From Prevotella sp. (GTDB taxonomy: Bacteria > Bacteroidota > Bacteroidia > Bacteroidales > Bacteroidaceae): DNA of 40,196 nucleotides. Position numbers and translations under genes: made by a program. Positions 4,241 to 39,954 of this stretch are shown one piece after another; position 1 is the stretch's first letter, and each line of letters begins with the position of its first letter. The DNA is taken from contig JAFVGS010000006.1 of the NCBI GenBank assembly GCA_017474845.1, positions 1 through 40,196 on the forward strand. The letters are read 5' to 3'. The notes below the pieces were generated by a model that ran no database searches, was not told the origin of the DNA, and saw nothing but the letters and a program-made list of their open reading frames with translations.

Positions 4241-4275
4241 AATTGTCAATTATCAATTATCAATTGTCAATTATT
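4241..4275. repeat. Tandem 7-base repeat between adaptor and pump genes
   Basis: Five units of AATTRTC/AATTATT fill the whole gap between the adaptor stop codon and the pump ATG. On the minus strand the array runs straight into the start codon, so it occupies the place of a ribosome-binding region. Related units (AATTATC, CATTGTC) recur inside the GH97 gene at 33709-33744. Confidence 0.85.
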
Positions 4276-9222: not shown

Positions 9223-9249
9223 AACGAATTTCACGAATTACACGAATTT
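9223..9249. repeat. Tandem 9-base repeat between sensor and GH31 genes
   Basis: Three 9-base units (AACGAATTT, CACGAATTA, CACGAATTT) end exactly where the stop codon of the upstream sensor gene begins (9252-9250 on the minus strand). Two units of the same type (AACGAATTA, AACGAATTG) occur 30 kb away at 39937-39954. Confidence 0.8.
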
Positions 9250-12200: not shown

Positions 12201-12351
12201 ATCCCTTCGAGTCCTGATAGATACAGTTGATGGTCGAATTGGACAATCCGTCACGCGTGTCCAGCCTTCTGAACTTCATGTCTGGGATGGCATTCTCTGC
12301 ATTTCCACACAGACATGCCAATAACAGCGTCAAGCCTATTAGTCTTTTCAT
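9250..12351 (-). CDS. Two-component-regulator propeller sensor with Y_Y_Y and HATPase domain, no receiver or DNA-binding domain
   Basis: 1033 residues. Signal peptide (MKRLIGLTLLLACLCGNAE), then the periplasmic propeller typical of hybrid two-component systems, opening with MKFRRLDTRDGLSNSTINCI and with many WIGT/WFGT blades. A Y_Y_Y domain (about 700-790), one membrane helix (797-816) and a cytoplasmic part follow. That part has an ATPase fold with N-box (ILLNNAV, near 930), G1 box (DNGIGLP, near 957) and a glycine-poor G2-like region (PGVCLSIVKDIV). I see no phospho-accepting histidine of the HELRTPL type between helix and ATPase. The protein ends 40 residues after the ATPase with an acidic tail (EVEEAVLMDEE). 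Classical hybrid sensors of this kind continue into receiver and AraC domains, absent here. It lies between its paralogue and the GH31 gene, so glycan sensing is likely; how it signals is unclear. Confidence 0.88.
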   Translation of the reverse strand: MKRLIGLTLLLACLCGNAENAIPDMKFRRLDTRDGLSNSTINCIYQDSKGFVWIGTSYGLNRYDGYRFRTYYSDPNDTTTLRSNYVDQIFEDAAGRLWLRQGMNYSLFDPVTERTVRNPSKQLAEYGVIGGIDRFYIDSHKNMWVKTYDEGLYCNVYGRKKHTLTKYGYEDGQLPKEFYFSSMADWDGTLLVASSDGELIGVDTETGKVRWKDRYMIEHGGKTSEAYNIVVDQEGNYWVMTNLKTFVYDQKAKQWHPSVNSFLEAHGITPLPDPLQVWDVMADNRGWIWIGTDHEGVFVIDPKSKEVKHLLNNKFDETSLSDNTVRHLMTDHSGNVWISGYRNGLNQYIENLSGFRTLELGDINTTTEDKEGNYWFGTDNRGVIKYMPQTGETEVYDKARSGFASDIMVASYGAKDGSVWFGTYNGGLIHLDNGKVTNYLASNADGSLLNNNVWSVTEDKWGDIWIGTLGSGVQKLQKRTGKFLTWNSYNGKMPENFMTSASWTRKGWLLVGHSNYYSLINPVSGKVMNFTIPAVPGQQAAVANTVCVVEDSRELIWQGSTAGCCIFDPKTGRQKLLDMNSGLFGSSVVGIAEDLLHTMWVVTEHGISNVVPKKEENGDWSFLVRSFSSKDGLQQGPYNQRSVCRTHDGMILVGGLGGVDVINPKLITNVNNNERPILSGLKLFGQQMGVGQEYEGRVILEKALDECKELVLRHDENQFTIQLATNKGEMHNPSRFIYQLEGFSDKWMKTEENDPNITYMSLRHGNYILHVRMLNDDGTMGKEEAVLELTITPPLLRNRWLMLLFLACVAGGIWYWRKQFMKKQNEKAELEYLRREVEKKQWMNEIKTQMMNSGPATEQVQKPKPAAPEWEITDLNRQPADLQEFMKEQCAQFKAPEGKKLKFSFFPLANDLLMPFDRDLMGQAIQILLNNAVMFSPSNCVIKVFVDKTPSGGTIRISDNGIGLPEGAKEHMFDPVVSDDDPGVCLSIVKDIVMAHGGTVTGDNNAGGGSVFTITLPLEQPEEVEEAVLMDEE

Positions 12352-12366
12352 ATCTTGTTGTTTAGG

Positions 12367-12402
12367 TTTTTCACCTTTTTACTTTTTCACCTTCTCACTT
12401 CT
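12367..12402. repeat. Tandem repeat of TTTTTCACC/TTTTTAC units overlapping the stop of the upstream sensor gene
   Basis: An array of T-rich units (TTTTTCACC, TTTTTAC, TTTTTCACC, TTCTCAC) lies in the 43-base gap between the sensor genes. It runs into the last codons of the upstream sensor gene, whose stop is at 12397-12395. The same kind of unit (TTTTTACC) occurs around the nagB-GH97 junction. Confidence 0.7.
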
Positions 12403-15010
12403 CTTCCTCTTCCATCATGACAGCCTCCTCCACGTCATCGTCCTCCTCAGGCGTCTTTTCTTCGACTTCTGCGGCCTTTTCTTTCTGACGTTGGAGACGG
12501 TTCATCTTCCTCCTGCGCCTCCAACGACGGAAGGGTTTGCGGAGGAACAAAACTGCCACAATCAATAGCACGTAACAGACGATGGCCCACCACGAACGGT
12601 ACCACGGAGAGTCGATGGTGATGTCGAGGCGGCTCTCCACCTCACCCATCGTACCGTCGTCGCGCAGCATCCTCACGCAGAGGGTATAGCTGCCCGGAGG
12701 CAGCGACATATAGGTAATGTCGGGATTGTTGCCCGACGTCTTGATCCACTTGTCATTGAACCCTTCCAACTGGTACACGAACCGCGTGGCGTTGTTGATG
12801 CCGCCGTTGTCCGAGGCCATATGGATGGTGAACTGGTTCTGTTCATACTTCAGCCTGATGCTCCGCTGCATATCCAGGGCCTGGTCGAGGATGACACGAC
12901 CGTCATATTCCTCCCCCACCTCTACTTCCTGGTCGAAGAGCACCAGTCCACTGAACACGGGGCGTTCCTTCAAATCACCATTGCCCAGTTTCAAGGTACT
13001 GATGATGTCGAGACCGTCCTGTCCGCCGATGAGCAGTTCACCCTTACTTGAACAGAAGATGGCGCGCTGGTTGAAGGGACCGGGCTGCAGACCGTCGCGA
13101 CTGTTGAAGTTGCGGATGGTGAAGGTCCACGTGCCGTCATCCTGCTTCAAGGGTGTGATGTTCGACACACCGTGGTCCGTGGCCACCCACATCGTGTTCC
13201 TCGTGTCCTCCGTCACGGAGACGGCATTAGAGCCGAAGAGTCCCGACTTCATGTCGAGGAGCGCCTTCTGCTGCGTCTTCAGGTCGTAGATCACCACACC
13301 TGAGGGTGAGCACTGCCACAACAGTCCGCGGCTGTCGATGATAGCCTGTGTCGTGGCAGTCGAGATGGTAATAGCCTTGTGGTCGTCATCCACAGGGAAT
13401 GAGCCGTTGATGATCTTGAAGTTGCCGGGATTGATCAGGGCGTAGTACTCTGAGTTTCCTAATACAATCCAGCCGTTAGAGCCCGTCGAGATACTGTTCG
13501 TCCAGACGGTATTCAGCGAGGAATTGTCGGCCGTAAAGGCGCGCTGCTGACCGGTCTTCTTGTCGATGCGCACGGCACCGCCGCCGAGCACACCCACCCA
13601 GATGTTACCCCACTTGTCTTCCGTGATGCCCCAGATGTTGTTCGTCACCAAGGCACTGCCGGCATCCGTCGTACGGTAGTTCTTCCACTGACCGTTCTGA
13701 TACCGCAGGATACCGCCCTCGTAGGTACCGAACCACAGGCTGCCGTCCTTTGCCGTATAGCTGCCCACGATGATGTCACTGGGCACACCAAGACTCTGTT
13801 TCGTGAACTGCTCCACAGACTCCAGCGTATTCGGATCCATCTTGATGATACCGCCGTCGTTACGGCCTATCCAGTAGTAGCCTTCCTTGTCTTCCGTAAT
13901 GGCGTTGATGTCGCCGATGGGCATGCTCTTGAAGTTCGTCATCGACTCTAAGCACATCGCTACGCCGTTCTTATAGCTGGCGAGCCACATACGGCCAAGC
14001 TGGTCGAGATACAGGTGCTTGATGGTGTTGTCGGGCAACGAGGTCTCGTCGCCTTTCACGTTCAGGAACTGTCGCCATTGACGGGTGTCCTCGTCAAGTA
14101 CGAACACGCCCTGGTGGTCGGTGGCCACCCAGAGGAGCCCTTTTGCATCGTAGCATATCTCCCACACAAGCACGTCGTCAGGCACGTTCTCATAACCCTG
14201 TGCCCGCATCCACTCTGTCAGCGACGAGTACCAGCGCTTCTCCTTCTTCACATAGATATATGTTCCCGTCGAGTGGGTGATCACCCAGAGGTTCTGCTGC
14301 TTGTCTGTGGTCACCCAGTAGTCGTTGTAGGCGTTCAAGGCGTTCTTCACGTACGGTTCCTTCCACAGCACCTTACCTTTCTCACCGTCGATGCACATCA
14401 GCTCACCGAATGTCGACACGAGCACCATGCCATCCTCCGTCTCGGTATAGGCTGATACTCCGAAATCCTTCGAGAACTCATACGGGCCGTAGCCGAAGGG
14501 GAAGTGCCTGAGGTTCTTCGTCACAGGGTTGAAATAGTAGAAACCTTCCTCATAGCTCTTCACCCAGTAGTTCATCTTCGAGTCGAGGTGGATGCTCTCC
14601 ATACTGCCAAGCATGCCCTGCTCGTTCAGCCAGCGTGTCGGATTACGGTCCACTTTCTCCGTCACCGGGTCGTACATCGTGTAGTTCATCCTCTGCTTCA
14701 GCCACAGCCTGCCGCCATGACCCTCCTGAATCTCGTCGATACGGTTGTTGCGCAGCGAGGTGGTGTCCTTGTCATAGCTGAAATAAGTACGGATGCGGTA
14801 GCCGTCATAGCGGTTCAGGCCGTAGCCCGTACCGAACCACACGTACCCATAGGAGTCACGAAGGATACAGAATACCTCTGAGTTCGACAGGCCCTCGCGG
14901 GTGTCCACACGGCGGAATTTCATGTCAGGGATGACTGCAGCTTCTGCCACAATCCCGATGCAAAGCATCGTCAAAAAGATCGAAAGACGTTTCACAATTT
15001 CTTGCTTCAT
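12395..15010 (-). CDS. Propeller/Y_Y_Y membrane sensor without any kinase domain
   Basis: 871 residues from the ATG at 15010 (MKQEIVKRLSIFLTMLCIGIV, a signal peptide); a TTG ten codons upstream is less likely because it lies against the promoter. Same architecture as the neighbouring sensor: the propeller opens MKFRRVDTREGLSNSEVFCI and repeats WFGT/WIGR/WVGV blades, the Y_Y_Y domain follows (FVYQLEGFNDKWIKT and so on), and a membrane helix sits at about 805-824. After the helix there are only about 45 residues: a basic stretch (RRWRRRRKMNRLQRQKEK) and an acidic tail (DDDVEEAVMMEEEEK) almost identical to the end of its paralogue. The kinase core is therefore missing while both ends match. It may be a signal-sensing subunit that pairs with the other sensor; this is inference. 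First gene of the sensor-GH31 run, with a promoter at 15038-15069. Confidence 0.87.
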   Translation of the reverse strand: MKQEIVKRLSIFLTMLCIGIVAEAAVIPDMKFRRVDTREGLSNSEVFCILRDSYGYVWFGTGYGLNRYDGYRIRTYFSYDKDTTSLRNNRIDEIQEGHGGRLWLKQRMNYTMYDPVTEKVDRNPTRWLNEQGMLGSMESIHLDSKMNYWVKSYEEGFYYFNPVTKNLRHFPFGYGPYEFSKDFGVSAYTETEDGMVLVSTFGELMCIDGEKGKVLWKEPYVKNALNAYNDYWVTTDKQQNLWVITHSTGTYIYVKKEKRWYSSLTEWMRAQGYENVPDDVLVWEICYDAKGLLWVATDHQGVFVLDEDTRQWRQFLNVKGDETSLPDNTIKHLYLDQLGRMWLASYKNGVAMCLESMTNFKSMPIGDINAITEDKEGYYWIGRNDGGIIKMDPNTLESVEQFTKQSLGVPSDIIVGSYTAKDGSLWFGTYEGGILRYQNGQWKNYRTTDAGSALVTNNIWGITEDKWGNIWVGVLGGGAVRIDKKTGQQRAFTADNSSLNTVWTNSISTGSNGWIVLGNSEYYALINPGNFKIINGSFPVDDDHKAITISTATTQAIIDSRGLLWQCSPSGVVIYDLKTQQKALLDMKSGLFGSNAVSVTEDTRNTMWVATDHGVSNITPLKQDDGTWTFTIRNFNSRDGLQPGPFNQRAIFCSSKGELLIGGQDGLDIISTLKLGNGDLKERPVFSGLVLFDQEVEVGEEYDGRVILDQALDMQRSIRLKYEQNQFTIHMASDNGGINNATRFVYQLEGFNDKWIKTSGNNPDITYMSLPPGSYTLCVRMLRDDGTMGEVESRLDITIDSPWYRSWWAIVCYVLLIVAVLFLRKPFRRWRRRRKMNRLQRQKEKAAEVEEKTPEEDDDVEEAVMMEEEEK

Positions 15011-15037
15011 TATTTGGTTGTTCGTAAATTTATGGTA

Positions 15038-15069
15038 CAAAGGTAAGCATTATATTACATATACGCAAA
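15038..15069 (-). promoter_or_regulatory. Promoter of the sensor-GH31 operon
   Basis: Minus strand: TTTG (15069-15066), a 20-base spacer, then TACCTTTG (15045-15038). It precedes the sensor ATG at 15010 by a short leader. No comparable promoter is seen in the gaps before the second sensor or GH31, so all four genes may share it. Confidence 0.82.
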
Positions 15070-19004: not shown

Positions 19005-20266
19005 TTCTTGGAGGGCTTCAAGTAAACTTGGAAGGTGAGGATCTCTTCATTTCGCAACACTTTCACGGGGATGGTGGTATCTGGTTCGAGTTCCGACAGA
19101 CGCTGCATATAGTCATCCATATTCTTGACAGGCTTGCCGTCTATCTCCTGAATGATGTCACCACTACGGATGCCGGCAGTATGGGCTGGCTTTCCTGCCA
19201 CCACAATGTCGGCCCGAAGACCGGGAATGCGGCTGACACCCATCACGTCGGGCATGAGCCCCAAAGTGACCTTGAATTTCGCATGCTTCATCGTATTGCT
19301 GCTCGGCACGCTGATATAATCAGGTGTCGTCGGCATACTGGCCAGACGGGTAATCAGCGCCTTCGAGAAGTCCAGCGTCTGCTGCATACCATCGTAATTC
19401 AGTGTTGAAGGCACATCGTCAGGGGTATGATACTCCATATGACCTCCTGTGGTGAGGAAGAGCACGGGGATGTCAGCTGCCACAAACGACGCATGGTCGC
19501 TCGGGCCATAGCCGTCAGGCGTACAGCTGATGTTCAGGTTGGTCTGTTCTGCTGCTTTCTCTGCCATCGCCTTGAATTCAGAACTGGTACCTGTCCCCGA
19601 CACACTCATGGCGTTATCACGCATACGTCCCACCATATCCAGATTCACCATGGCGACAATACCTTTCTTGTCGGCAGGAAGATTGATACGCCGGTCATCG
19701 GCCTGCTTCATCCATTCCAGGAATTGCTTGGAACCGACCAGACCTTGTTCCTCTGCGCCGAAGAAAGCGAAGATGATGCTTCGTGGCTGACGTACCTTCT
19801 TAAAATACTTGGCCAGTTCGAGTACCACGGCATCACCACTGGCATTATCGTCAGCACCAGGATGAACACCTAATGTATCAGGGCGGCGTGAACCAGAACC
19901 CTGACCTCCCAGGCCAAGATGGTCGTAATGCGAGCCGACTACTATGTATTCGTTTTTGTGTTGCTTGTCTTTTCCTGGAAGCACAGCGATGATGTTATGG
20001 GTCGTCCGCTCCACTTCCTTCCCGTAGGTGAAGTTGTGATAGTAACCTGTCTTTTTCTTTCCCTTGACCACTGGTTTGAGTTTCAGGCTACGAAGTTGGC
20101 CCACGATATATTCAGAGGCCAGGGTGTCGCCCGCAGTACCCGGATATCGGCCTCCCAACTCCTGCGAAGCCAGGTATTCCACCGTTTGCCGCATATCGTC
20201 CTGTTTCTGGGCGTGTGCCTGCAGGACAAGGGCAAAAGCCAAAAATATAATCCATCTATTTCTCAT
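19001..20266 (-). CDS. M28-family zinc aminopeptidase with C-terminal PDZ domain
   Basis: 421 residues from the ATG at 20266; MRNRWIIFLAFALVLQAHA is a signal peptide. The frame continues 13 codons upstream, but those cross the promoter. Zinc-site residues typical of M28: His113 in GSHYDHLG, Asp139 in PGADDNASG, the Glu pair 172-173 in GAEEQGL, Asp210 in NLDMVGR, and a late His in GGHMEYHTPDD. A PDZ domain occupies roughly residues 325-415 (AGIRSGDIIQEIDGKPV). Predicted to be periplasmic or surface-attached. First gene of the operon leading to the TonB receptor. Confidence 0.93.
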   Translation of the reverse strand: MRNRWIIFLAFALVLQAHAQKQDDMRQTVEYLASQELGGRYPGTAGDTLASEYIVGQLRSLKLKPVVKGKKKTGYYHNFTYGKEVERTTHNIIAVLPGKDKQHKNEYIVVGSHYDHLGLGGQGSGSRRPDTLGVHPGADDNASGDAVVLELAKYFKKVRQPRSIIFAFFGAEEQGLVGSKQFLEWMKQADDRRINLPADKKGIVAMVNLDMVGRMRDNAMSVSGTGTSSEFKAMAEKAAEQTNLNISCTPDGYGPSDHASFVAADIPVLFLTTGGHMEYHTPDDVPSTLNYDGMQQTLDFSKALITRLASMPTTPDYISVPSSNTMKHAKFKVTLGLMPDVMGVSRIPGLRADIVVAGKPAHTAGIRSGDIIQEIDGKPVKNMDDYMQRLSELEPDTTIPVKVLRNEEILTFQVYLKPSKK

Positions 20267-20274
20267 TTCGGGTG

Positions 20275-20306
20275 CAAAGGTACATCGTTTCCACGACCTG
20301 TGCAAT
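20275..20306 (-). promoter_or_regulatory. Promoter of the M28-TonB receptor operon, nearly leaderless
   Basis: TACCTTTG at 20282-20275 (minus) with ATTG 20 bases upstream. The -7 element is followed by CACCCGAA and then the ATG, so transcription should begin within a few bases of the start codon. The same arrangement is seen for hflX. Confidence 0.78.
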
Positions 20307-20395
20307 CCCTATTTATATGGATTTTGCCCGGATACTGACGAAAAGGCAGATACTTCAGACAAATTGTCGGTAATCATCCCCGCGGCACGATTTTA

Positions 20396-20458
20396 GACAT
20401 AAGAACATAAGAACACAATGGCTGCGCCAGAACAAATCTGTTCTTATGTTCTTATGTC
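20396..20458. repeat. Perfect 20-bp inverted repeat made of 8-base units, upstream of clpB
   Basis: The left arm GACATAAGAACATAAGAACA (20396-20415) is the exact reverse complement of 20439-20458; the loop is 23 bases. Each arm is itself two ACATAAGA octamers plus remnants. It is far longer than a normal terminator stem and is not followed by a simple T-run; the run after it is A-rich. Confidence 0.88.
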
Positions 20459-20469
20459 AAAAAAGAAAA

Positions 20470-20541
20470 GTTAGTATGTTAGTATGTCTGAAAAAGAAAA
20501 TGTTAGTATGTTAGTATGTCTGAAAAAAAAGTTATTATGTC
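20470..20541 (+). repeat. Direct repeats of TTAGTATG octamers before clpB
   Basis: Two copies (20470-20495 and 20502-20527) of a 26-base sequence built from two TTAGTATG octamers followed by TCTGAAAAA, then a shorter relative (GTTATTATGTC, 20531-20541). The array ends ten bases before the clpB Shine-Dalgarno. Confidence 0.85.
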
Positions 20542-20551
20542 AAAATAAAAA

Positions 20552-20557
20552 AGGAGG
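20552..20557 (+). promoter_or_regulatory. Strong Shine-Dalgarno of clpB
   Basis: AGGAGG, five bases before the ATG at 20563. It is the only canonical Shine-Dalgarno I noticed in the window, where other starts have A-rich or featureless leaders. Confidence 0.75.
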
Positions 20558-20562
20558 TTAAT

Positions 20563-23070
20563 ATGACTTTAGACAAATTTACAATCAAAGCTCAGGAAGC
20601 CGTTCAGGCGGCAGTAAACACTGCCCAGATGAACGGCCAGCAGGTCATCGAACCTGTACATATACTCAAAGGAGTATTGGAGAAGGCGAAGGACGTCACA
20701 ACCTTCATCTTCCAGAAACTCGGTGTGAACGCCCAGCAGATAGAGATGCTCGTCGATCAGGAGATCAAGCACCTCCCCCGTGTACAGGGCGGACAACCCT
20801 ATCTCTCTAACGAATCTAATAATGTACTCGTGCGCGCCCAGGAGATCGCCACCAAGCAGGGCGACGAGTTCGTGGCGTGTGAGCCGGTGTTACAGGCACT
20901 TTTAACCGTGAATTCCACAGCCTCACGCATCATGAAGGATGCAGGCTGCACGGAAAAGGAGATGCAGCAGGCCATTCAGGCCCTGCGCCAGGGACAGAAG
21001 GTACAGTCACAATCGGCTGATGACAACTACCAGTCGCTGGAGAAGTACGCCAAGAACCTCGTCGATCTCGCCCGTCAGGGCAAACTCGACCCCGTGATAG
21101 GCCGTGATGATGAGATCCGCCGTCTGCTTCAAATTCTGAGTCGCCGTACGAAGAACAACCCCATCCTGATCGGTGAACCAGGTACCGGTAAGACCGCCAT
21201 CGTAGAAGGGCTCGCAGGCCGTATCGTGCGTGGGGATGTACCTGAGAACCTGAAGGACAAGCAGCTCTATTCGCTCGACATGGGTGCGCTCGTGGCTGGT
21301 GCGAAGTACAAGGGTGAGTTTGAGGAACGTCTGAAGAGCGTCATTAACGAGGTGACGAAGGCGGAAGGACGCATCATCCTCTTCATCGATGAAATCCACA
21401 CCCTGGTAGGCGCCGGTGGTGGTGAGGGCGCGATGGATGCCGCCAACATCCTGAAACCAGCCTTGGCACGTGGTGAACTCCGTGCCATTGGTGCGACGAC
21501 CCTGAACGAATACCAGAAGTACTTCGAGAAGGATAAGGCGCTCGAACGTCGTTTCCAGACGGTGATGGTCGATGAGCCGGATGAACTCAGTGCCATCTCC
21601 ATCCTGCGAGGTCTGAAGGAGCGCTACGAGAACCACCACAAGGTACGTATCCAGGATGATGCCTGTATCGCAGCCGTCCAGCTCTCCGAGCGTTATATCT
21701 CTGAACGTTTCCTGCCCGACAAGGCCATCGACCTGATGGACGAGGCAGCCGCCAAGCTCCGTATGGAGCGTGACTCTGTGCCCGAGGAACTCGATGAGAT
21801 CACCCGTCGCCTCGCCCAGTTAGAGATTGAACGCGAAGCCATCAAACGCGAGGGCGATGAGCCAAAGATTGCCCAGCTGGATAAGGATATCGCAGAACTG
21901 AAGGAGCAGGAGACCCAGTTCCGTGCCAAGTGGGAGGGTGAGCGCCAGCTCATCAACAGGATCCAACAGGACAAGCAGGAGATGGAGAACCTCAAGCTCG
22001 AAGCGGAGCGTGCCGAACGTGAGGGCGACTATGGTAAGGTGGCCGAGATCCGCTACTCGAAACTAAAAGTCCTGGAGGATGATATCAAGGCCATCCAGAA
22101 CCAGTTGGCTTCAGCACAAGGCGGAAACTCACTGGTGCGTGAGGAAGTCACTGCCGACGATATCGCCGAGGTGGTATCCCGCTGGACAGGCATCCCTGTC
22201 ACGAAGATGATGCAGAGTGAACGTGAGAAGCTGCTCCACCTCGAGGATGAACTGCACAAGCGCGTGATTGGTCAGGACGAGGCCATCACGGCTGTCTCTG
22301 ATGCCGTACGTCGTTCACGTGCAGGCTTACAGGATCCGAAGCGCCCGATTGCCTCATTCATCTTCTTGGGTACGACGGGTGTCGGTAAGACCGAACTCGC
22401 CAAGACGTTGGCAGACTATCTGTTCAACGATGAGACGATGATGACGCGTATCGATATGTCGGAATACCAGGAGAAGTACAGCGTCTCCCGTCTGATTGGT
22501 GCCCCTCCGGGCTATGTCGGCTACGATGAGGGTGGTCAGCTCACAGAGGCAGTGCGTCGTAAACCTTATTCCGTCGTGCTCTTCGATGAGATCGAGAAGG
22601 CCCATCCGGATGTGTTCAACATCCTCTTACAAGTATTGGACGATGGTCGTCTGACGGACAACAAGGGACGTACCGCCAACTTCAAGAATACCATCATCAT
22701 CATGACCTCGAATGCGACGAGGGAGCAACTGCGCCAGAACATGCGTCCGGAGTTCCTGAACCGTATCGATGAGATCATCACCTTCACCCCATTGACGAAG
22801 GAACAGATCAGCGACGTAGTCCGTCTGCAGATGAAGAGGGTATCGGAGATGTTGGAGCCTCAGGGCATCCGACTCGAATGCACGCCCCAGGCCATTGCCT
22901 ACTTGGCTGAAGAAGGGTACGATCCCGACTTTGGAGCCCGTCCCGTCAAGCGTGCCATCCAACAGTTCGTGCTCAACGACCTCTCGAAGAAGCTCCTCGC
23001 CGATGAGGTGGATCGCAACAAGCCCATCATCATTGATGACTTCGGTGATGGACTGGTATTCAGGAACTAA
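20563..23070 (+). CDS. clpB: ClpB disaggregase (Hsp100), with a shortened second AAA+ domain
   Basis: ATP-driven hexameric disaggregase working with DnaK. 835 residues, compared with about 857 in E. coli. Order: N-domain (1-145), AAA-1 with Walker [10 protein letters not shown] (near 205) and Walker B ILFIDEIH, a coiled-coil middle domain (about 390-520), AAA-2 with Walker [10 protein letters not shown] and Walker [12 protein letters not shown], arginine-finger region FLNRIDEI and the [11 protein letters not shown] sensor-2 motif. After the sensor-1 MTSN (near 717) only ten residues precede RPEFLNR, against about 30 in E. coli ClpB, so roughly 20 residues are missing in frame. The start is fixed by a strong Shine-Dalgarno. 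No clear TAnnTTTG promoter was found upstream; the region holds repeats instead. Confidence 0.97.
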
Positions 23071-29157: not shown

Positions 29158-29195
29158 TCTTGAACTCCTTGAACTCCTTGTCTACTTGTCTCCTT
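29158..29195. repeat. Tandem 8-9-base repeat between M16 and DUF4954 genes
   Basis: Units GAACTCCTT, GAACTCCTT, GTCTACTT, GTCTCCTT fill the 45-base gap. The same units occur inside hflX (31186-31223) and GH97 (34128-34241). Confidence 0.85.
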
Positions 29196-31053: not shown

Positions 31054-32425
31054 AATCATTATATAAAAAATCGTTATACGGATATTTCTGGACGTGCAGC
31101 TCGCGTACCCTCCTATAGAGCACCTCTCGCAGCTCGTCGATGTTCTCTTTCTTCTTCGCACTTATGAACAGGCACTCCAGGTAATGTCCTGAACTCCCTG
31201 TCTCCTTGTCTCCCTGTCTCCCCAACTTTCCCATCCACGTGCGTTTCAATTCTTCCAGCGTAATATTCTCCCGCGTCATGGGTGTCAGGTCGTCTTCCTC
31301 CTTCTCCACCCACGTGTACGCGTCAATCTTATTAAATACCAGCATTTGCGGTTTCTCCGCACAGCCCAGTTCCATCAGCGTCTCCTCCACCACCCGGATC
31401 TGTTCCTCGAAGTCGGGATGGGAGATATCCACCACATGCACCAGCAGATCCGCCTCTCTCACCTCGTCCAGCGTCGACTTAAACGACTCCACAAGGTCTG
31501 ACGGCAACTTACGGATGAACCCTACCGTGTCTGCCAGGAGGAAAGGCAGATTGTCGATAGTCATCTTTCTGACGGTGGTATCCAATGTCGCAAACAGTTT
31601 GTTCTCTGCGAACACCTCACTCTTGGCCAGGAGGTTCATCATCGTCGACTTGCCGACGTTGGTATAGCCTACCAGCGCCACACGGATCAGACGGCCACGG
31701 TTCTTCCGCTGGGTGGTCTTCTGCTTGTCTATCTCTGCCAGGCGCTGCTTCAACAGGGTGATGCGCTGGAGGATGATGCGACGGTCCATCTCCAACTGCG
31801 TCTCACCGGGTCCACGCAGGCCTACGGAACCCTTTCCACCACCCGAGCCAGAACCACCGCCCTGACGTTCCAAGTGTGTCCAGAGCCTCTGCAGACGGGG
31901 CAGCATATAGCGGTGCTGCGCCAGTTCCACCTGGGCCTTGGCCTCGGCTGTCTGTGCCCTCATGGCAAAGATATCTAATATTAAAGAGGTACGGTCGAGG
32001 ATCTTCACCTTGAGTTCCTGCTCGATATTCCGGATCTGTTTGGCAGAAAGTTCATCGTCGAAGATCACCATGCCGACTGGCTGCGGAGCTTCCCCTCCTG
32101 AGTAGGAGGAGTGCCCGGAGGGCGGGGTGGTCTGATCCCCAAATAATGATGCATCCTGAGCATCGAGCCAGTCATCATAGTCATCCTGGCATTTCTTGAT
32201 GTATTGCTTAATCTCCTGCAGCTTGCCTGAGCCCACATACGTCGTCTGACTCGGTCCACCCACTTTCTGGGTGAACCGTTTCACGGTTACAGCGCCTGCA
32301 GTGTCGGCCAGGAACTCCAGTTCGTCGAGATATTCCTTGGTCTTGGCCTCATCCTGCTCCTTGGTGACAAGTCCCACCAGCACAGCCGTCTCGGCCTTAG
32401 CCTCTGATATTACGAATTCTTTCAT
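31046..32425 (-). CDS. hflX: GTPase HflX, carrying two repeat-encoded insertions
   Basis: Ribosome-associated GTPase, involved in splitting stalled 70S particles. 459 residues. N-terminal HflX domain (VGGPSQTTYVGSGKLQEIK, MVIFDDELSAKQIRNIE), glycine-rich linker (GSGSGGGKGSVGLRGPGETQ), G domain with G1 GYTNVGKST (near 253), G3 DTVGF, G4 NKID (near 364) and a C-terminal tail. Two stretches look inserted in frame: residues about 98-111 (TPPSGHSSYSGGE), encoded by a palindromic element, and about 400-415 (RQGDKETGSSGHYLE), encoded by a tandem 8-9-base repeat where relatives have a short loop before FISAK. All GTP-binding motifs are intact, so it should be functional. First gene of the operon. Confidence 0.95.
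   Translation of the reverse strand: MKEFVISEAKAETAVLVGLVTKEQDEAKTKEYLDELEFLADTAGAVTVKRFTQKVGGPSQTTYVGSGKLQEIKQYIKKCQDDYDDWLDAQDASLFGDQTTPPSGHSSYSGGEAPQPVGMVIFDDELSAKQIRNIEQELKVKILDRTSLILDIFAMRAQTAEAKAQVELAQHRYMLPRLQRLWTHLERQGGGSGSGGGKGSVGLRGPGETQLEMDRRIILQRITLLKQRLAEIDKQKTTQRKNRGRLIRVALVGYTNVGKSTMMNLLAKSEVFAENKLFATLDTTVRKMTIDNLPFLLADTVGFIRKLPSDLVESFKSTLDEVREADLLVHVVDISHPDFEEQIRVVEETLMELGCAEKPQMLVFNKIDAYTWVEKEEDDLTPMTRENITLEELKRTWMGKLGRQGDKETGSSGHYLECLFISAKKKENIDELREVLYRRVRELHVQKYPYNDFLYNDYE
31179..31223. repeat. Tandem 8-9-base repeat inserted in hflX
   Basis: Units GAACTCCCT, GTCTCCTT, GTCTCCCT, GTCTCCCC preceded by AGGTAATGTCC. The 19 bases AGGTAATGTCCTGAACTCC at 31179-31197 are identical to 34193-34211 in GH97. 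The frame is kept. Confidence 0.85.
32092..32131. repeat. Palindromic REP-like element inside hflX
   Basis: Two adjacent hairpins: CCTCCT-GAGT-AGGAGG (32094-32109) and GCCC-GGA-GGGC (32113-32123), then GGGGTGGT. It codes for a Pro/Ser/Gly-rich stretch between the HflX N-terminal parts. From memory, similar double hairpins are common between genes in Bacteroidales; I could not check copy number. Confidence 0.65.
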
Positions 32426-32453: not shown

Positions 32454-32526
32454 GGATTATAAGGATTATAATGAAAGTTTTTTCAGCGAAAAGAATAAAA
32501 AATCCTTAAAATCCATATAATCCATG
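32454..32526. repeat. Inverted pair of 9-base tandem repeats between hflX and nagB
   Basis: Left arm 32454-32473 (GGATTATAAGGATTATAATG) and right arm about 32500-32526 (AATCCTTAA, AATCCATAT, AATCCATG) are imperfect reverse complements built from 9-base units, with a 26-base loop. The pair sits between the two divergent promoters. Confidence 0.8.
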
Positions 32527-32591: not shown

Positions 32592-33386
32592 ATGAGAGTA
32601 ATTATTCAGTCAGACTATCAGAGACTGTCCCAGTGGGCAGCCAACCATGTCGTTGAGCGTATCAACAAGTTCAATCCCACCCCCGACCACAAGTTCGTGC
32701 TGGGTCTTCCCACAGGTTCTTCTCCCGTAGGCATGTACAATGCCCTCGTCGAGGCTAACCGTGCCGGTAAGGTGTCGTTCAAGAATGTCATTACCTTCAA
32801 CATGGACGAGTATGTCGGTCTGCCCGAGACCCATCCGGAGAGCTACCACGCCTTCATGGCCCGTAACCTCTTCGACCACATTGACTGTCCGAAGGAGAAC
32901 ATCCACATCCTGAACGGCAACGCCCCCGACCTGAACGAGGAGTGCGCCAAGTATGAGGCCATGATCGAGGAGGCAGGCGGCATCGACCTGTTCATCGGCG
33001 GTATCGGCCCTGACGGTCACATTGCCTTCAACGAGCCGGGCAGTTCACTGCGCAGACGTACCCGCATGAAGACCCTCACCACAGACACCCGCATCGCCAA
33101 CAGCCGTTTCTTCGGCGGAAGGCCCGAGAATGTGCCTGCTCATGCCCTGACGGTAGGTGTCGGCACCGTGATGGACGCCCGTGAGGTGATGATCCTGGCC
33201 AACGGTCACGCCAAGGCCCGTGCCCTGCAGGCTGCCATCGAGGGTAGCGTCAACCACATGTGGACCATCAGCGCCCTGCAAATGCATCCCCACGGCATCA
33301 TCGTCTGTGACGAGGAGGCTGCCGACGAGCTGAAGGTCAGCACGTACAAGTACTTCAAGGACATCGAGCAGGATCAGCTGCTGTAA
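32592..33386 (+). CDS. nagB: Glucosamine-6-phosphate deaminase
   Basis: Converts glucosamine-6-phosphate to fructose-6-phosphate and ammonia in amino-sugar catabolism. 264 residues from the ATG at 32592; in-frame codons further upstream lie in the promoter. The catalytic residues are at the same numbers as in E. coli NagB: Asp72 (NMDEYVGLP), Asp141 and His143 (GPDGHIAFN), Glu148 (NEPGSS). The phosphate-binding N-terminus ([12 protein letters not shown]) is present. The next gene, GH97, starts 84 bases on; a weak hairpin and a tandem repeat lie between. Confidence 0.97.
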
Positions 33387-33545
33387 AAAGGTAAAAAAGT
33401 AAAAAGGTAAAAAACATAATGAGGGCACGGATGGTGAATGATCGTTCGTGCCCATTTTAGATAAATAGTTATGAAGAATTTGTCATTGAAGGGTTTCGGT
33501 ATGAGGAAATGGATTTTACCATTTTACCTTTTTACCTTTTTACCC
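33385..33545. repeat. Inverted pair of TTTTTACC-type tandem repeats flanking the nagB-GH97 junction
   Basis: The left array (33385-33415) is GGTAAAAAAGTAAAAAGG-like; the right array (33513-33545) is TTTTACCATTTTACC followed by TTTTTACC units, the reverse complement type. The left one begins at the nagB stop codon and the right one encodes the hydrophobic core of the GH97 signal peptide. They are about 100 bases apart. Confidence 0.8.
33423..33460 (+). terminator. Possible weak terminator after nagB
   Basis: GGGCACG (33423-33429) pairs with CGTGCCC (33447-33453) around a 17-base loop, followed by ATTTTAG. The stem is short and the T-run poor, so partial read-through into GH97 is likely; GH97 has no visible promoter of its own. 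Confidence 0.45.
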
Positions 33546-35564
33546 ATATCGGCAAAGGATGTGAAAGTGATATCACCCGACAGCAGCCTGCAGGTGACGG
33601 TCAGCGATGCCGGCGGACACCTCTACTACTCCGCCACCCTCAACGGCCAGCAGATGCTCCTCCCCTCGGCCCTTGGCCTGAAGACCAGCATCGGCGACTT
33701 CACCCGGGAATTATCCATTGTCAATTCTCCATTATCCATTGTAAGCAACGCTTACCAAATGCGCGGCACCAAGGCCTCCTCTGCCGACTATAAGGCCACG
33801 AAGGCCGTCATCGATATCGAGAACAAAGACCATCAGCGCTTCAGCGTCATCTTCCAGGTCTCTGACAACGACATCGCCTTCCGCTACGCCATCCCCCGTC
33901 AGAAATGGCAGGACAAGGAGCCCAAGCGTCTGCGCATCAAAAGTGAACTGAGCAGTTTCAACTTCCCCGACGGCACCACGACGTTCATCTCTCCGCAGAT
34001 AGGTCCTGAGTCCGGCTGGGAACAGACCAAGCCCAGCTACGAGGAAGGCTACTCTGCCGATGCCCCGATGGACACCCCTTCTCAATATGGACACGGCTAC
34101 ATCTTCCCCGCCCTGTTCCATATTCATGGAGACAAGGAGACAGGTAGACAAGGAGTTCAAGACAAATCTTCCAGCGCGAAAGGTAGCCCAAAAGGTAATG
34201 TCCTGAACTCCTTGAACTCCTTGAACTCCTTGTCTACTTGGGCCTTGGTTAGTGAGACAGGCGTTGGAAGCAACTATTGCGGCAGTCATCTAAGTGACTA
34301 CCAGGCAGGTGTCGGCTACACCGTCGCCTACCCCGATGCCGGCGAAAACAACGGCTATGGCACCGACTTCGCAGCCATCCCCCTGCCCGGTGAGACGCCC
34401 TGGCGCACCATCACCCTCGGCACCTCGCTCAAGCCCATCGCAGAGACCACCATCAGCTACGACCTCGTCGAGCCCCTCTACGAGCCCTCCACCGACTACA
34501 AGCCTGGACGCTACACCTGGAGCTGGCTCATCTGGCAGGACACCTCCGTCAACTACGACGACCAGGTGAAATTCATCGACCTCGCCTCAGCCATGGGCTT
34601 CGAGTACTGTCTCGTGGATAACTGGTGGGACACGCAGATCGGCCGTGACCGCATCGAGGAACTCTCGAAATATGCCCAGTCGAAGGGCGTACATCTCTTA
34701 TTATGGTATAACAGCAACGGCTTCTGGAACGATGCCCCGCAGACCCCACGCAACTGCATGTCGACAGCCATCGCCCGTGAGCGGGAGATGACATGGCTGC
34801 AGCGCATCGGCGTCAAGGGCATCAAGGTGGACTTCTTCGGAGGCGACAAGCAGGAGACGATGCGGCTCTATGAGGACATCCTCAGCGACGCCAACCGTCA
34901 CGGGCTGCAGGTGGTCTTCCACGGCTGCACCGTACCTCGCGGCTGGGAGCGCATGTATCCCAACTTCGTGGCCTCAGAGGCAGTGCTCGCCTCAGAGAAC
35001 CTGTTCTTCGGTGAAGAGGCCACCTTCCGCGAAGGCTTCGACCTCACCCTCCATCCCTTCTGCCGCAATGCCACGGCCTCGATGGACTGGGGCGGTATCA
35101 TCCTCAACAAATATATCTCGAAGGACAACAAGAGCCGTCACACCCGTAAGACCACCGACATCTTCGAGCTCGCCTCGGGACTCATCATGCAGACCTCGGT
35201 ACAGTGCGTCGCCTTACAGCCGAACAACCTCGACGAACTGCCTGAGTTCGAACTGGACTTCCTGCGCGGCCTTCCCACCACATGGGAAGAGACCCGCTTC
35301 ATCGACGGCTATCCCGGCCATTACGTCGTCCTCGCCCGTAAGGACACTGACGGCCATTGGCACGTCGCAGGCCTCAACGCCCTCAAGGAGTCCCTGACAC
35401 TCACCCTCGACCTGCCGATGTTCGCTCCCGGTGAGACCCTCCGGTACTACGTCGACGAAAAAGACGGCTCACCGACGGTCACCACCCTCAAGATCGACAA
35501 GAAAGGCCGTGCGAAGGTCACCATCCAGCCCAACGGCGGCTTCATCATTCAAAAAGGGGAGTGA
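33471..35564 (+). CDS. Glycoside hydrolase family 97 (retaining alpha-galactosidase-like), with three repeat-encoded insertions
   Basis: 697 residues. The signal peptide is MRKWILPFYLFTFLPISA (starting at 33471 or 33501). N-terminal beta-sandwich, (beta/alpha)8 barrel and C-terminal beta domain follow the GH97 order. In the barrel, GIKVDFFGGDKQE places an aspartate (454 from 33471) where retaining GH97 enzymes such as BtGal97b have their nucleophile, and Glu503 (PNFVASEAV) is a candidate acid/base. The inverting SusB glutamate pattern is not seen. Three stretches coincide with tandem repeats: residues about 15-25 (signal core), 80-92 (LSIVNSPLSIVSN) and 220-258 (a spacer rich in Gly, Ser, Asn and Leu between FHIHGDKE and WALVSETGVGSNYCGSHL). 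All keep the frame. Stop codon lies in the terminator stem. Confidence 0.92.
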   Translation: MKNLSLKGFGMRKWILPFYLFTFLPISAKDVKVISPDSSLQVTVSDAGGHLYYSATLNGQQMLLPSALGLKTSIGDFTRELSIVNSPLSIVSNAYQMRGTKASSADYKATKAVIDIENKDHQRFSVIFQVSDNDIAFRYAIPRQKWQDKEPKRLRIKSELSSFNFPDGTTTFISPQIGPESGWEQTKPSYEEGYSADAPMDTPSQYGHGYIFPALFHIHGDKETGRQGVQDKSSSAKGSPKGNVLNSLNSLNSLSTWALVSETGVGSNYCGSHLSDYQAGVGYTVAYPDAGENNGYGTDFAAIPLPGETPWRTITLGTSLKPIAETTISYDLVEPLYEPSTDYKPGRYTWSWLIWQDTSVNYDDQVKFIDLASAMGFEYCLVDNWWDTQIGRDRIEELSKYAQSKGVHLLLWYNSNGFWNDAPQTPRNCMSTAIAREREMTWLQRIGVKGIKVDFFGGDKQETMRLYEDILSDANRHGLQVVFHGCTVPRGWERMYPNFVASEAVLASENLFFGEEATFREGFDLTLHPFCRNATASMDWGGIILNKYISKDNKSRHTRKTTDIFELASGLIMQTSVQCVALQPNNLDELPEFELDFLRGLPTTWEETRFIDGYPGHYVVLARKDTDGHWHVAGLNALKESLTLTLDLPMFAPGETLRYYVDEKDGSPTVTTLKIDKKGRAKVTIQPNGGFIIQKGE
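33709..33744. repeat. 7-base tandem repeat inside GH97
   Basis: Units AATTATC, CATTGTC, AATTCTC, CATTATC, CATTGTA in frame, coding LSIVNSPLSIVSN. The unit type matches the array at 4241-4275 between the efflux genes. Confidence 0.8.
34128..34241. repeat. Inverted tandem-repeat element inserted in GH97
   Basis: The left arm (34128-34164) and right arm (34201-34241) are reverse complements by unit (AAGGAGTTC / GAACTCCTT, GTAGACAAGG / CCTTGTCTAC) around a loop of about 36 bases. The element is close to 114 bases and keeps the frame. Relatives of GH97 read directly from the aromatic strand into the LVSETGV-type segment. Confidence 0.85.
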
Positions 35565-35735: not shown

Positions 35736-35758
35736 CCAAGATTCAAGTTTCAAGTCTC
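35736..35758. repeat. 7-base tandem repeat between HU-HIG and smalltalk genes
   Basis: AAGATTC, AAGTTTC, AAGTCTC: three 7-base units in the short gap, just after the HU-HIG stop codon. Confidence 0.65.
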
Positions 35759-35762
35759 GCCT

Positions 35763-36401
35763 TTAGTTCACGTCGTTGCCTCCGCCGTTGCTGCCACCGC
35801 CGCTGTCTCCGCCGCCAGTGTCACCGCCAGAGGTTCCGCCGCCAGTGTTACCACCGTTGTCGCCGCCAGAGGTGCCTCCGTTCTGGGTGCCGCCATTGCC
35901 GTTCTGACTGCCGGAGCCAGAACCGCTGCCGCCTTCGCCACCGTTGGTGGGTGATGCCGGGCGACCCTCGGCCTTCTCGCGCTTCAGATCCTCAGCCCAG
36001 ATGAAGGTAGCCTTTGCCAGCACGTCTTTGGAGTTCAGACCGGCCTCGTCGCCCTGATCGGGCAGGAAGCGGATGTGCAGACCGCTGAAGGTCGTCTTCG
36101 GGTTGAACTTGTCGATGCTCACGGCACCGCCCTTCTTGTTCTCAGCCATCAGGTAGAAGGTTCCCAGTCCCTCCAGCTTGATCTTCTTCGACTCCAGCAG
36201 CATCTCCACGATGCAGGCCTCGGCCTTGGTCAGTACACCCTCGACAACATCCTGCGTGTAGATGGAACCGTGATCGGCGATGTGACGCGCCAGCTTGCGG
36301 GTGTTCAGAGTCTCAGTGTGAACGATACGGCCGAAGTACTTGCCGTAGGCCGAGTTGTTCTCGTTCTTGTTCTGATAAACATCATAAATGATTTTTGACA
36401 T
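35763..36401 (-). CDS. HU-family DNA-binding protein with glycine-rich tail (HU-HIG)
   Basis: 212 residues. Residues 1-125 form the HU-like domain of the HU-HIG group (MSKIIYDVYQNKNENNSAYGK, LARHIADHG, GVLTKAEACIVEMLLESKKIKLEGLGTFYL, GLHIRFLPDQ). Residues 155-212 are a low-complexity Gly/Ser/Asn/Thr tail (GSGSGSGSQNGNGGTQNGG and so on), as in members fused to glycine-rich motifs. Presumed nucleoid-associated or DNA-bending role. It has its own promoter with a palindrome over the -7 element and a leader of about 115 bases. The tail is repetitive DNA and could vary in length between strains. Confidence 0.92.
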   Translation of the reverse strand: MSKIIYDVYQNKNENNSAYGKYFGRIVHTETLNTRKLARHIADHGSIYTQDVVEGVLTKAEACIVEMLLESKKIKLEGLGTFYLMAENKKGGAVSIDKFNPKTTFSGLHIRFLPDQGDEAGLNSKDVLAKATFIWAEDLKREKAEGRPASPTNGGEGGSGSGSGSQNGNGGTQNGGTSGGDNGGNTGGGTSGGDTGGGDSGGGSNGGGNDVN

Positions 36402-36553: not shown

Positions 36554-36727
36554 CTTTTTCGCAATTATTTTTCAAAAAAATGAAAATTTCTTTGCCCCTC
36601 GCGCGGCGAGCAGCAATTTCTCAGGGAGAGAGCCGCAACGTCTCTCCATTTTATCAGTAAGCAGGCTATCCGTGAGCACGCCATTCTCTCACCTCCTGCG
36701 TTTGTTGACCGTGTGTGTCTGGCCAGA
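36554..36727. other. Intergenic stretch with nothing recognised
   Basis: Between the HU-HIG promoter and the repeat element at 36728. A short frame crosses it but has no start context, no family resemblance and a serine/leucine-rich composition of the kind produced by T/C-rich DNA. I see no RNA gene or promoter here. Confidence 0.5.
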
Positions 36728-36929
36728 CTTTCTCACTTTCTCAGTTTCTCACTTATGACAAGAGCATTCTGCGGTTTCCCTTCAAAAGAACTTTTATTAA
36801 TTATAGATTATATATAATATATAATTAATAACATAATAATTATTAAACTTTAAAACCTTGACTTCGTCGACCTTCCCCTTTCGGAAAACGTTCTTGTCAT
36901 AACTGAGAAAGTGAGAAACTGAGAAACTT
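36728..36929. repeat. About 200-bp element: inverted 8-base tandem arrays around an AT-rich palindromic core
   Basis: The left array (36728-36762) and right array (36891-36929) are reverse complements built from CTGAGAAA/GTGAGAAA octamers; each ends inward with TCTTGTCATAA or its complement. The interior holds an AT-rich palindrome (ATTAATTATA 36796-36805 with TATAATTAAT 36820-36829). It ends where a truncated gene begins. Confidence 0.82.
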
Positions 36930-39075: not shown

Positions 39076-39252
39076 TGTTTGAGACTGCGTCTCGAAAAAC
39101 GGCTGCACCTCAGCAAAGCCAAAAGCGAGCTTTCGCTTTGCATTCGGTTTGCGCGTTCTTTGACTTATTGGAACAACGAAGACAAATCTCTCGCGTATGC
39201 ACACACGTGGGCATGCGCATGTACCATAGATAATTTTAAAAGGACTAAGGAT

Positions 39253-39933
39253 ATGAAGCAAAATCAAACTTTAACAGTGATGAATGCCGGGCGCATGACA
39301 TCGCTGGAGATTGCCGAAGTTACCGGCAAGCAGCACAAAAACCTGATGCGTGACATCAGGAATATGGAGGCTGCATGGGAAAAGGTTAACGGGCTCAAAT
39401 TTGAGCTCGTTGATTACACGGACTCCAAGGGCGAGCAACGCCCTTGTTACTCTCTCTCGAAAATGGAATGCCTTTACATCGCCACGAAGTTCAACGACGA
39501 GGCTCGTGCCAAGTTGGTGATTCGATGGCAACAGCTGGAGCAGGAGCGGATCACACAGAAATGTGTCAGAAAGCTGCTGGTGACGGATGAAGATGTGATG
39601 AATGAGGCCCAGCGTATCATTGGACGCACGATAGTCTCGTTCAACAAGCACGCTGACGGCTGTATCACCGCCAGCGACATTGCAGAGGCGATAGGCATGG
39701 AAGTGAAGGACCTGAACTCGTTCCTCACGGACAAGAAGGTTCAGAAATGGACGCGGGGTCAGTACCGTCTGACTCCTGAATATGAAGGTCTCGGACTGGC
39801 ACAGGACAGGCTTTTCATCTACTACTCGAAGGACGGGAAACAAAAGGAACGCACCTATCTCGTCTGGACTACCAAAGGTGCGGAAATGATTGACAAGATG
39901 ATTTTTGATCAAGGAAAACGAAATAAGGAATAA
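39253..39933 (+). CDS. Phage regulatory protein, Rha family with KilAC-like C-terminus
   Basis: 226 residues from the ATG at 39253 (MKQNQTLTVMNAGRMTSLEI). Residues 1-100 are the Rha domain (TSLEIAEVTGKQHKNLMRDI, YSLSKMECLYIATKFNDEAR), a phage antirepressor/regulator fold. The C-terminal part (ITASDIAEAIGMEVKDLNSF, YLVWTTKGAEMIDKMI) resembles the KilAC/antirepressor C-terminal domain. Typical of prophages and integrative elements. Longer upstream frames overlap the leader hairpin and are rejected. It is followed after 25 bases by another gene on the same strand, so they are probably co-transcribed. Confidence 0.9.
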   Translation: MKQNQTLTVMNAGRMTSLEIAEVTGKQHKNLMRDIRNMEAAWEKVNGLKFELVDYTDSKGEQRPCYSLSKMECLYIATKFNDEARAKLVIRWQQLEQERITQKCVRKLLVTDEDVMNEAQRIIGRTIVSFNKHADGCITASDIAEAIGMEVKDLNSFLTDKKVQKWTRGQYRLTPEYEGLGLAQDRLFIYYSKDGKQKERTYLVWTTKGAEMIDKMIFDQGKRNKE

Positions 39934-39936
39934 GAC

Positions 39937-39954
39937 AACGAATTAAACGAATTG
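39937..39954. repeat. Two 9-base CGAATT units between the Rha-type gene and the next gene
   Basis: AACGAATTA and AACGAATTG, the same unit as at 9223-9249. Confidence 0.6.

Follow-up and report, generated by a model that had tools for sequence, protein, structure and literature searches.

What is the repeated structure that precedes clpB in this Prevotella genome, and how did it arise? We analyzed it within a stretch of 40,196 nucleotides, referred to here as the window. As the original prediction stated, a perfect inverted repeat built from octamers precedes clpB. The left arm, composed of ACATAAGA octamers (20397–20415; sequence, TRF, and array detector), and the right arm (20439–20457), its perfect complement, enclose a loop of 23 bases (20416–20438; loop and right arm from sequence and RNA folding). 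The two octamer direct repeats expected after it are present as well, as TTAGTATG blocks at 20470–20487 and 20500–20519 (TRF and array detector), upstream of clpB itself (20563–23070, an AAA+ disaggregase gene by ORF and Pfam); all of these features are given on the + strand. RNA folding of positions 20390–20465 yields −31.8 kcal/mol (z −9.3), and none of 200 shuffles was equally stable. On the 3′ side of the stem (20397–20457) lies an A tract on the + strand and CTAAAATCG on the − strand, so the stem is not followed by the T tract of an intrinsic terminator on either strand, and a terminator was rejected for this reason. A terminator scan of 20250–20620, which permits loops of 3–8 bases only (23 at clpB), gave no match. 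A known RNA family was likewise rejected, as Rfam returned zero matches in the whole window at the gathering-score cut-off, and the clpB element had zero matches to phage records.

Array counts bear out the prediction that such elements form a class with a unit length of 7–9 bases. At a detector threshold of 11, the window holds 15 arrays of periods 7–9, compared to a mean of 0.025 (maximum 1) in simulated windows (40 of Markov order 1 and 40 of order 2). Across 438 kb of the same genome (the window, which is contig 25 of the draft, and 20 further stretches, out of 2.15 Mb in an assembly that is 58.9% complete), arrays of score 12 number 35, 18, and 19 at periods 7, 8, and 9, none at periods 4–6, and 4, 4, and 2 at periods 10, 11, and 12, with 0 or 1 array per period in a Markov-5 control. 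The arrays are not due to chance. With a looser setting, the same 438 kb yields 110 arrays of period 7–10, and the density for this genome is 25 per 100 kb. One strand is G-free in 39% of the arrays, compared to 1% of random segments. Locus L045 carries long 9-base collagen-like coding repeats (12262–13592) that are distinct from the arrays; it is included in the 438-kb period counts, the ORF placement of the 110 arrays, the neighbor-pair count and the density, and excluded from the tests of strand skew, array likeness, finer pairing, arm specificity, and co-directional gaps.

Some Prevotella species are dense in arrays, and arrays are absent from small samples of other species. In samples of 20–40 kb each, seven other Prevotella genomes (G001, G003, G004, G007, G008, G009, and G013) have 15–37 arrays per 100 kb and six (G005, G006, G010, G012, G016, and G017) have 0–5; in nine genomes from other families of the order the range is 0–6, with zero in six of the nine (samples of 17–60 kb). 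Samples of this size can mislead: G012 has zero arrays in its density sample, yet 16 matches to the GTAAAAAG query introduced below.

Fourteen more array sites had been listed for the window. The detector recovered 12 of these when its threshold was lowered to 9, and TRF recovered the one at 12367; the site at 39937 consists of just two 9-mers and went undetected. The heptamer array CAATTATC/CAATTGTC (4241–4272; TRF, Pfam, and ORFs) lies between genes for a membrane-fusion protein and an AcrB-type protein and overlaps a stop codon, and the 9-mer array ACGAATTTC (9224–9248; TRF and ORFs) is found immediately past one. The octamer array TTTTTCAC (12367–12400; TRF and ORF, missed by the array detector) overlaps the stop of the ORF at 12395–15040 on the − strand, the CTTGAACTC/CTTGTCTA arrays (29159–29195; TRF, Pfam, and ORFs) lie past the stop of a DUF4954 gene, and the heptamer array AGTTTCA (35737–35755; TRF, ORF, and array detector) sits just past the stop of the ORF at 35763–36401 on the − strand. 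Within the C-terminal part of a GTPase ORF we found a CTCCCTGT array (31194–31222; TRF, ORF, Pfam, and alignment). The features that follow are given on the + strand. An array pair has its left arm, GGATTATAA, at 32454–32471 and its right arm at 32499–32525 (TRF and alignment). Around the start of a GH97 gene, a GTAAAAAG array (33383–33414; TRF, ORFs, and alignment) begins at the stop codon of the preceding gene, and its inverted partner, a TTTTTACC array (33513–33544; ORFs, Pfam, and alignment), codes for the hydrophobic, signal-peptide-like N-terminal segment of the GH97 protein. Further into this gene are a CATTATCC/CATTGTCC array in a loop (33710–33740; alignment and loop survey) and an in-gene element with a GGAGACA array as left arm (34128–34159; TRF 34128–34155, extended by eye) and a TGAACTCCT array as right arm (34204–34232; TRF and alignment). 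Another pair consists of a ACTTTCTC left arm (36727–36751) and a AACTGAGA right arm (36904–36928; both from TRF and the pair test). Inside this pair (36752–36903) the inverted similarity runs on, with TTATGACAAGA on both sides, and at L034 (10454–10497) the same ACTTTCTC array is followed by ATGACAAG, which together point to a shared inner end for this family. Finally, the two ACGAATTAA-type 9-mer copies (39937–39954; from sequence, below the detector threshold) adjoin the stop of an antirepressor-like gene. A phage-type regulator gene with Rha and KilAC domains occupies 39079–39933, close to the end of the contig, and may indicate the edge of a prophage.

The clpB element belongs to these array pairs and carries additional blocks of a related word. 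The ACATAAGA family recurs in the same genome as nested arms (e.g., loci L205 and L204). Among 13 relatives in which the clpB start codon was located, the 300 bases upstream contain arrays in L006 only, where a heptamer family different from that of the window occurs with inverted copies (by eye); the other 12 have none. We do not expect a dedicated regulator at this element.

The arrays had further been predicted to cluster at gene ends and starts and possibly to affect transcript ends. Their association with gene ends was retained; a role in transcript ends finds no support at clpB, where the T tract is missing. We surveyed 312 co-directional gaps of 20–300 nt in three sets of loci; of the 62 arrays in these gaps, 43 are closer to the stop than to the start and 27 touch or overlap the stop codon, a count given without a null. 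More than half of the bases are purines on the mRNA strand in 42 of the 62 (mean 0.58, compared to 0.53 in control 30-mers), 20 are C-free (8 of 231 controls), and 7 are G-free (4 of 231). Summed over the three sets, with 59 unskewed arrays set aside, arrays between co-directional genes have more G than C on the mRNA strand in 48 cases and more C than G in 27. Within the first 90 nt of ORFs, all 13 skewed arrays are C-rich on the coding strand, and deeper in ORFs there is no clear bias (37 C-rich, 32 G-rich). In the window, the leader array at 33383 is complementary to the signal-peptide array at 33513, and a similar layout is present at 11474/11547 of L036. Arrays are not confined to gaps: 47 of the 110 lie inside and 63 outside ORFs, which were called mechanically at a minimum of 100 aa and cover approximately 92% of the sample.

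Complementary array pairs occur far more often than in control windows of this genome. With L045 excluded and a partner defined as lying within 300 bp at a score of at least 16, an inverted partner was detected for 22 of 102 arrays and a direct partner for 2, compared to 1 and 0 of 358 control windows; for most arrays no partner was detected. In 80 GH97 loci the corresponding numbers are 15 and 1 of 121 arrays (controls, 4 and 5 of 342). Counting neighboring arrays (up to 300 bp apart), 9 of 28 pairs in this genome are inverted-alike and 4 direct-alike, all four of the latter in the single collagen-like coding repeat of L045; in the GH97 loci 6 of 26 are inverted-alike and 1 direct-alike. Inverted pairing is thus evident both in this genome and across the GH97 loci. 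It is not universal, because a third set (20 stretches from other Prevotella genomes) reverses the pattern, with 4 inverted and 13 direct partners among 51 arrays (controls, 2 and 6 of 180).

Arms had been described as complementary to each other and not to other loci, which does not hold for most of them. In a 0.42-Mb sample, using partner scores of at least 14, the partner was the best match for 3 of 26 paired arms and tied for 4, and in 19 another locus outdid it. The proposal that the two arms are made or maintained together survives in part: templated copying is plausible as local or ectopic copying of words rather than as a unique pairwise event. The pair at 32454/32499, common to the window and L052, has uncompensated differences between its arms (by eye), so strict hairpin selection is not seen there. 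In L051 and L055, a TTAATCCGTG array occupies the position of the right arm at 32499 and the left arm is missing.

The prediction that the sequence changes from place to place was half correct, as words also recur. Within this genome, the element at 33383–33544 has 32 matches, that at 34125–34245 has 19 and the GGAAAGA element of L033 has 19, counts that include the query and in which one place may score twice since both arms are in the query. The GTAAAAAG query (33383–33544) matches 37 of 60 Prevotella genomes and none in the other 23; the GGAAAGA query from L033 matches 14 of the 60 and the GGAGACA query 9. Across the 60 species the words thus form patchy dialects, each species with its own. 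Among the GTAAAAAG matches listed, those besides the query itself leave positions 43–106 of its 162 bases, the middle of the core, unspanned (four enter it by at most 18 bases), so that the arms recur without the core middle. As to the conserved core expected of a MITE, the core is partly shared in the GGAAAGA family, and its middle is unmatched, among the matches listed, for GTAAAAAG. An exact 24-base word of the GTAAAAAG family occurs 23 times in the fetched loci, two of these occurrences being the same place present in two loci, which leaves 21 places, the window's own among them; the places in L067, L068, and L070 are orthologous and the remaining flanks appear unrelated. Identical 32-base GTAAAAAG tracts occupy, among the matches listed, many loci from at least a dozen species. 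Two arrays taken at random are alike in 4.9% of pairs from this genome, in 3.7% when one array is from this genome and the other from the GH97 loci, and in 4.6% when both are from the GH97 loci; the corresponding values are 0.5% when arrays are built of random genomic words and 2.3% when the words are permuted. The word vocabulary is therefore real, and composition explains part of it, since permuted words yield half of the recurrence.

Some words also match plasmid records. The CAATTATC array has 12 such records, 8 of which we take by genus to be cyanobacterial and 4 Bacteroidota; GGAGTCA has 13, presumably 12 cyanobacterial and one Pseudomonas. The TAATGGA array matches three Providencia, one Pantoea, and two more records, the latter assigned by us to Bacteroidota from their genus. 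Two more arrays match one record each (Streptomyces and Leptolyngbya), and another two match zero, perhaps owing to the low-complexity filter. Mirror controls match as well, with 2 records for one, of which one is by its genus presumably cyanobacterial, and 12 for another (8 Borreliella, with Gloeothece, Microcystis, and Segatella among the rest). As the mirror controls match too and the other arrays are weaker, this sharing of words across phyla is suggestive only.

Orthologous sites differ between species by whole arrays, which are either missing or different. The closest listed relative of the window's GH97 protein is from the Prevotella isolate Tb.RUG.304, the nearest being rumen Prevotella, and 19 of 80 fetched GH97 loci could be aligned to the window, giving 20 sequences. 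The coding site at approximately 34124–34246 is empty in 10 of the 20 and occupied in 10, by at least four different insertions at an identical position: the GGAGACA array pair (window and L056), a GACCCC-type hairpin (L051, L055, and L061), a AAGGAATC-type hairpin (L053, L054, and L068), and others (L059 and L064). At this one in-gene position (orthologs L051–L069), unrelated hairpin elements have landed repeatedly in different species. The array pairs in the gap before GH97 are of GTAAAAAG words in the window and L067, of GGAGACA in L056, and of CACAGATT in L053, and L065, L051, and L055 have single arrays there; L052 and L054 are ambiguous, and by eye 11 of the 20 sequences (L057–L064, L066, L068, and L069) have no array there. 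At a second coding site, near 31194, the CTCCCTGT array of the window is replaced by a different hairpin sequence in L051, L052, and L055, which is of the CCCCTCCTGAATAGGAGGGG type followed by a GC-rich part. A CCCCTCCTGAATAGGAGGGG-like hairpin also precedes GH97 in L051 and L055.

The GH97 loop was located by motif in 41 of 81 loci and is 87 nt long in 35 of these, 3 nt longer in five and 156 nt in one. Period-7 arrays of at least seven different words are found in 13 of the 41, at a low threshold (score 7) for which a null was not computed, and 12 of the 13 are at the common length. Words replace sequence here rather than add to it, although the outcome could not be told apart from an insertion that was later offset by a deletion under selection. 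At several sites a tract has been replaced and a clean empty counterpart is lacking. Fourteen alignments of related species contain 30 indel clusters of at least 6 bases; an array lies in 10 of these clusters, nine times in one species only, compared to 6 of 300 control segments. Shared sequences cause two of these events to be counted twice, and clusters no more than 60 columns from an alignment end were dropped.

We tentatively favor, at just short of an even chance, an origin of the arrays in slippage and template switching during DNA synthesis, with the products sorted by selection. The growing strand would slip by one unit and so generate tandem words, and a template switch to a nearby or distant copy would move a tract of approximately 30 bases, either in its original sense or as the reverse complement. 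Words would be written over tolerated sequence, often with a complementary arm placed nearby, and selection would keep arrays where they are harmless or useful, as in leaders after a stop, signal peptides, and surface loops. In a leader, an array could provide a purine-rich, poorly structured stretch between a stop codon and the next start; in a signal peptide, its pyrimidine-rich sense could supply the hydrophobic segment. We infer that replication is when the copying takes place, that the templates include distant arrays, and that arrays rich in purines act as unstructured leaders. The available text of PMC8794818 reports that template switching can make reverse-complement arms in a single event, and that of PMC3155529 that in Prevotella bryantii leader structure lowers translation and the Shine-Dalgarno sequence is unused, with which unstructured purine-rich leaders would fit. 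Against slippage and switching, the comparisons are between species and no strain-level event was caught, the third Prevotella set favors direct partners, and permuted words give half of the recurrence. The identical 32-base GTAAAAAG tracts in at least a dozen species would moreover require ectopic copying, transfer, or selection, and local slippage alone is hard-pressed to account for them. A more far-reaching proposal, which we hold with considerable doubt, is that in some bacterial lineages an active writing process overwrites tracts of 20–60 bases, even within genes and at a length conserved by selection, with tandem 7–9-base words copied out of a common vocabulary, in many cases together with a complementary arm; the words would spread themselves without a transposase, and the vocabulary would be partly common to Prevotella and Cyanobacteria.

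Selection could instead have kept the arrays as regulatory elements that adjust translation or mRNA decay, acting as repeated binding sites or as hairpins in the mRNA. The 27 of 62 gap arrays that touch a stop and the 42 that are mostly purine suggest as much, as do the folding of the ACATAAGA pair far beyond its shuffles, the other heptamer family, inverted by eye, before clpB in L006, and the proposal in the available text of PMC4679880 that TAACTGA repeats are sites for a translation regulator. We nevertheless consider this unlikely, given that 47 of 110 arrays lie inside ORFs, that the pre-GH97 gap is without an array in 11 of 20 sequences (by eye), that orthologous sites carry different words and the 32454/32499 arms differ without compensation (by eye), and that only one of 13 relatives has arrays in its clpB leader. 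Movement in trans by a transposase or reverse transcriptase, as MITE-like or REP-like elements with tandem ends, would explain why one coding site is occupied by different hairpin elements across species, why copy number is patchy (GTAAAAAG, GGAAAGA, and GGAGACA in 37, 14, and 9 of 60 genomes), and why the GGAAAGA cores are partly shared. It appears distinctly unlikely in view of the GTAAAAAG core middle (43–106 of 162), uncovered among the matches listed, and of the many arrays with no detected partner. The candidate movers, Y1 transposase and reverse transcriptase, were sought in 18 genomes, and MutS and MutL in 60, and no trans factor was found. A Y1 transposase was rejected as common mover, as it was not found in the array-bearing G003 and G008 and a different palindrome, and no array, flanks the Y1-type gene of this genome itself; reverse transcriptase was rejected since RVT_1 was not found in four array-bearing genomes (G000, G004, G007, and G008, of which G000 is only 59% complete). 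A phage vector was also rejected: exact words occur in just 5, 36, and 3 viral-contig stretches, and the clpB element matched no phage record.

Simple replication slippage, set free by a loss of mismatch repair, was suggested by G000 and by G009, which is listed as 99% complete and has the densest sample, as MutS_I was found in neither. Across the 60 genus genomes this was not supported, and we regard it as very improbable: MutS_I is present in 53 and MutL_C in 56, including the match-rich G031, G040, G004, and G065; the GTAAAAAG query matches 33 of the 53 genomes that have MutS_I and 4 of the 7 in which it was not found; and slippage alone yields neither inverted partners nor shared words. 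In G009, with the densest arrays of the sampled genomes, MutL is present.

Slippage combined with template switching can be approached further within the genus, where array-rich and array-poor species and sites that differ by whole arrays offer a natural comparison for finding the cause. Since arrays supply coding sequence, in signal-peptide-like segments and loops, they may locally give rise to variation in proteins. A literature search that covered few subscription journals and was partly aimed elsewhere found no published account of such arrays in Prevotella; nor did it find the multi-word vocabulary, the reoccupied fixed sites, or the rewritten coding loops in print.

By type, the arrays, which consist of degenerate words in tandem, belong with the STRRs, or long simple sequence repeats, whose units measure 5–11 nt. 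STRR is the name used for the cyanobacterial repeats. Tandem units of about 7 nt at numbers far above chance, as in STRRs, were found throughout the 438 kb sampled out of 2.15 Mb; as to a mainly intergenic location, the arrays are, by mechanical ORFs, enriched outside ORFs and not exclusive to intergenic DNA. As told in the available text of PMC4679880, heptamers are the most common long simple sequence repeats (Mrazek 2007), and according to what is available of this paper and of PMC4692102, an excess of heptamer repeats in bacteria was noted in 2007 and polymerase slippage proposed as its cause; neither text, in the part available, contains a demonstration of it. Unit length, abundance, and an unexplained preference for 7 nt are shared with the cyanobacterial repeats as described there, and plasmids of cyanobacteria carry arrays similar to those found here. 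The cyanobacterial repeats belong to a different phylum, and in Prevotella 8- and 9-mers are common as well.

The original prediction knew of no functional account for the arrays, whereas heptamer arrays with these habits are already known from the available parts of two papers and the cyanobacterial repeats they cite. TAACTGA direct repeats, with a proposed role in translation, are reported for Beggiatoaceae, Cyanobacteria, and some Bacteroidetes (MacGregor 2015, PMC4679880), and resemble the Prevotella arrays in having 7-nt units in few copies, mostly intergenic near starts and patchy by species. By that account one unit was followed, whereas Prevotella has many families of 7–9 (10) nt, 47 of 110 arrays in ORFs, inverted pairs, and differences inside coding sequence between orthologs; no TAACTGA array was seen by eye in the genome listing, and 43 of 62 gap arrays are nearer the stop than the start. 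GGGAATC arrays in Xanthomonas form 70 and 75 convergent inverted pairs in two genomes (Rehm 2015, PMC4692102) and, as far as that text extends, are similar as heptamers with many inverted pairs that lie closer to the upstream than to the downstream gene. There the unit is a single G-rich one of quadruplex type; here there are many units, the arrays have one strand depleted in G or C, with one strand G-free in 39%, and the genome listing shows by eye no GGGAATC-type unit, while a few other arrays there and in the neighbor-pair count do contain GGG.

Other systems share single traits, again as their available texts describe them. The P6b stem of the Nostoc trnL intron is a stem-loop built of repeats whose motif class switched repeatedly (PMC4476775), at one intron locus, unlike a genome-wide class. 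The BrickBuilt MITE of Porphyromonas gingivalis, also in Bacteroidales, has tandem repeats in an element with inverted ends (PMC4596501), but with a 23-nt unit, a fixed leader and tail, and an always intergenic position. REP elements with their RAYT are small, hairpin-forming, near gene ends, sometimes in genes, and often in opposed pairs (PMC3733652), yet they are built on a defined palindrome where the Prevotella arrays are built of tandem words. Repeats that flank a RAYT gene would be expected of such elements, whereas the Y1-type (REP-associated-like) transposase gene of this genome (L140, C24:252–3611) is flanked by a TGTAACAGAGGGACGG palindrome and by no tandem arrays. A TGTAACAGAGGGACGGTTC palindrome lies on either side of this gene, in three copies within 3.4 kb (by eye), and looks like an ordinary REP family that is separate from the arrays.
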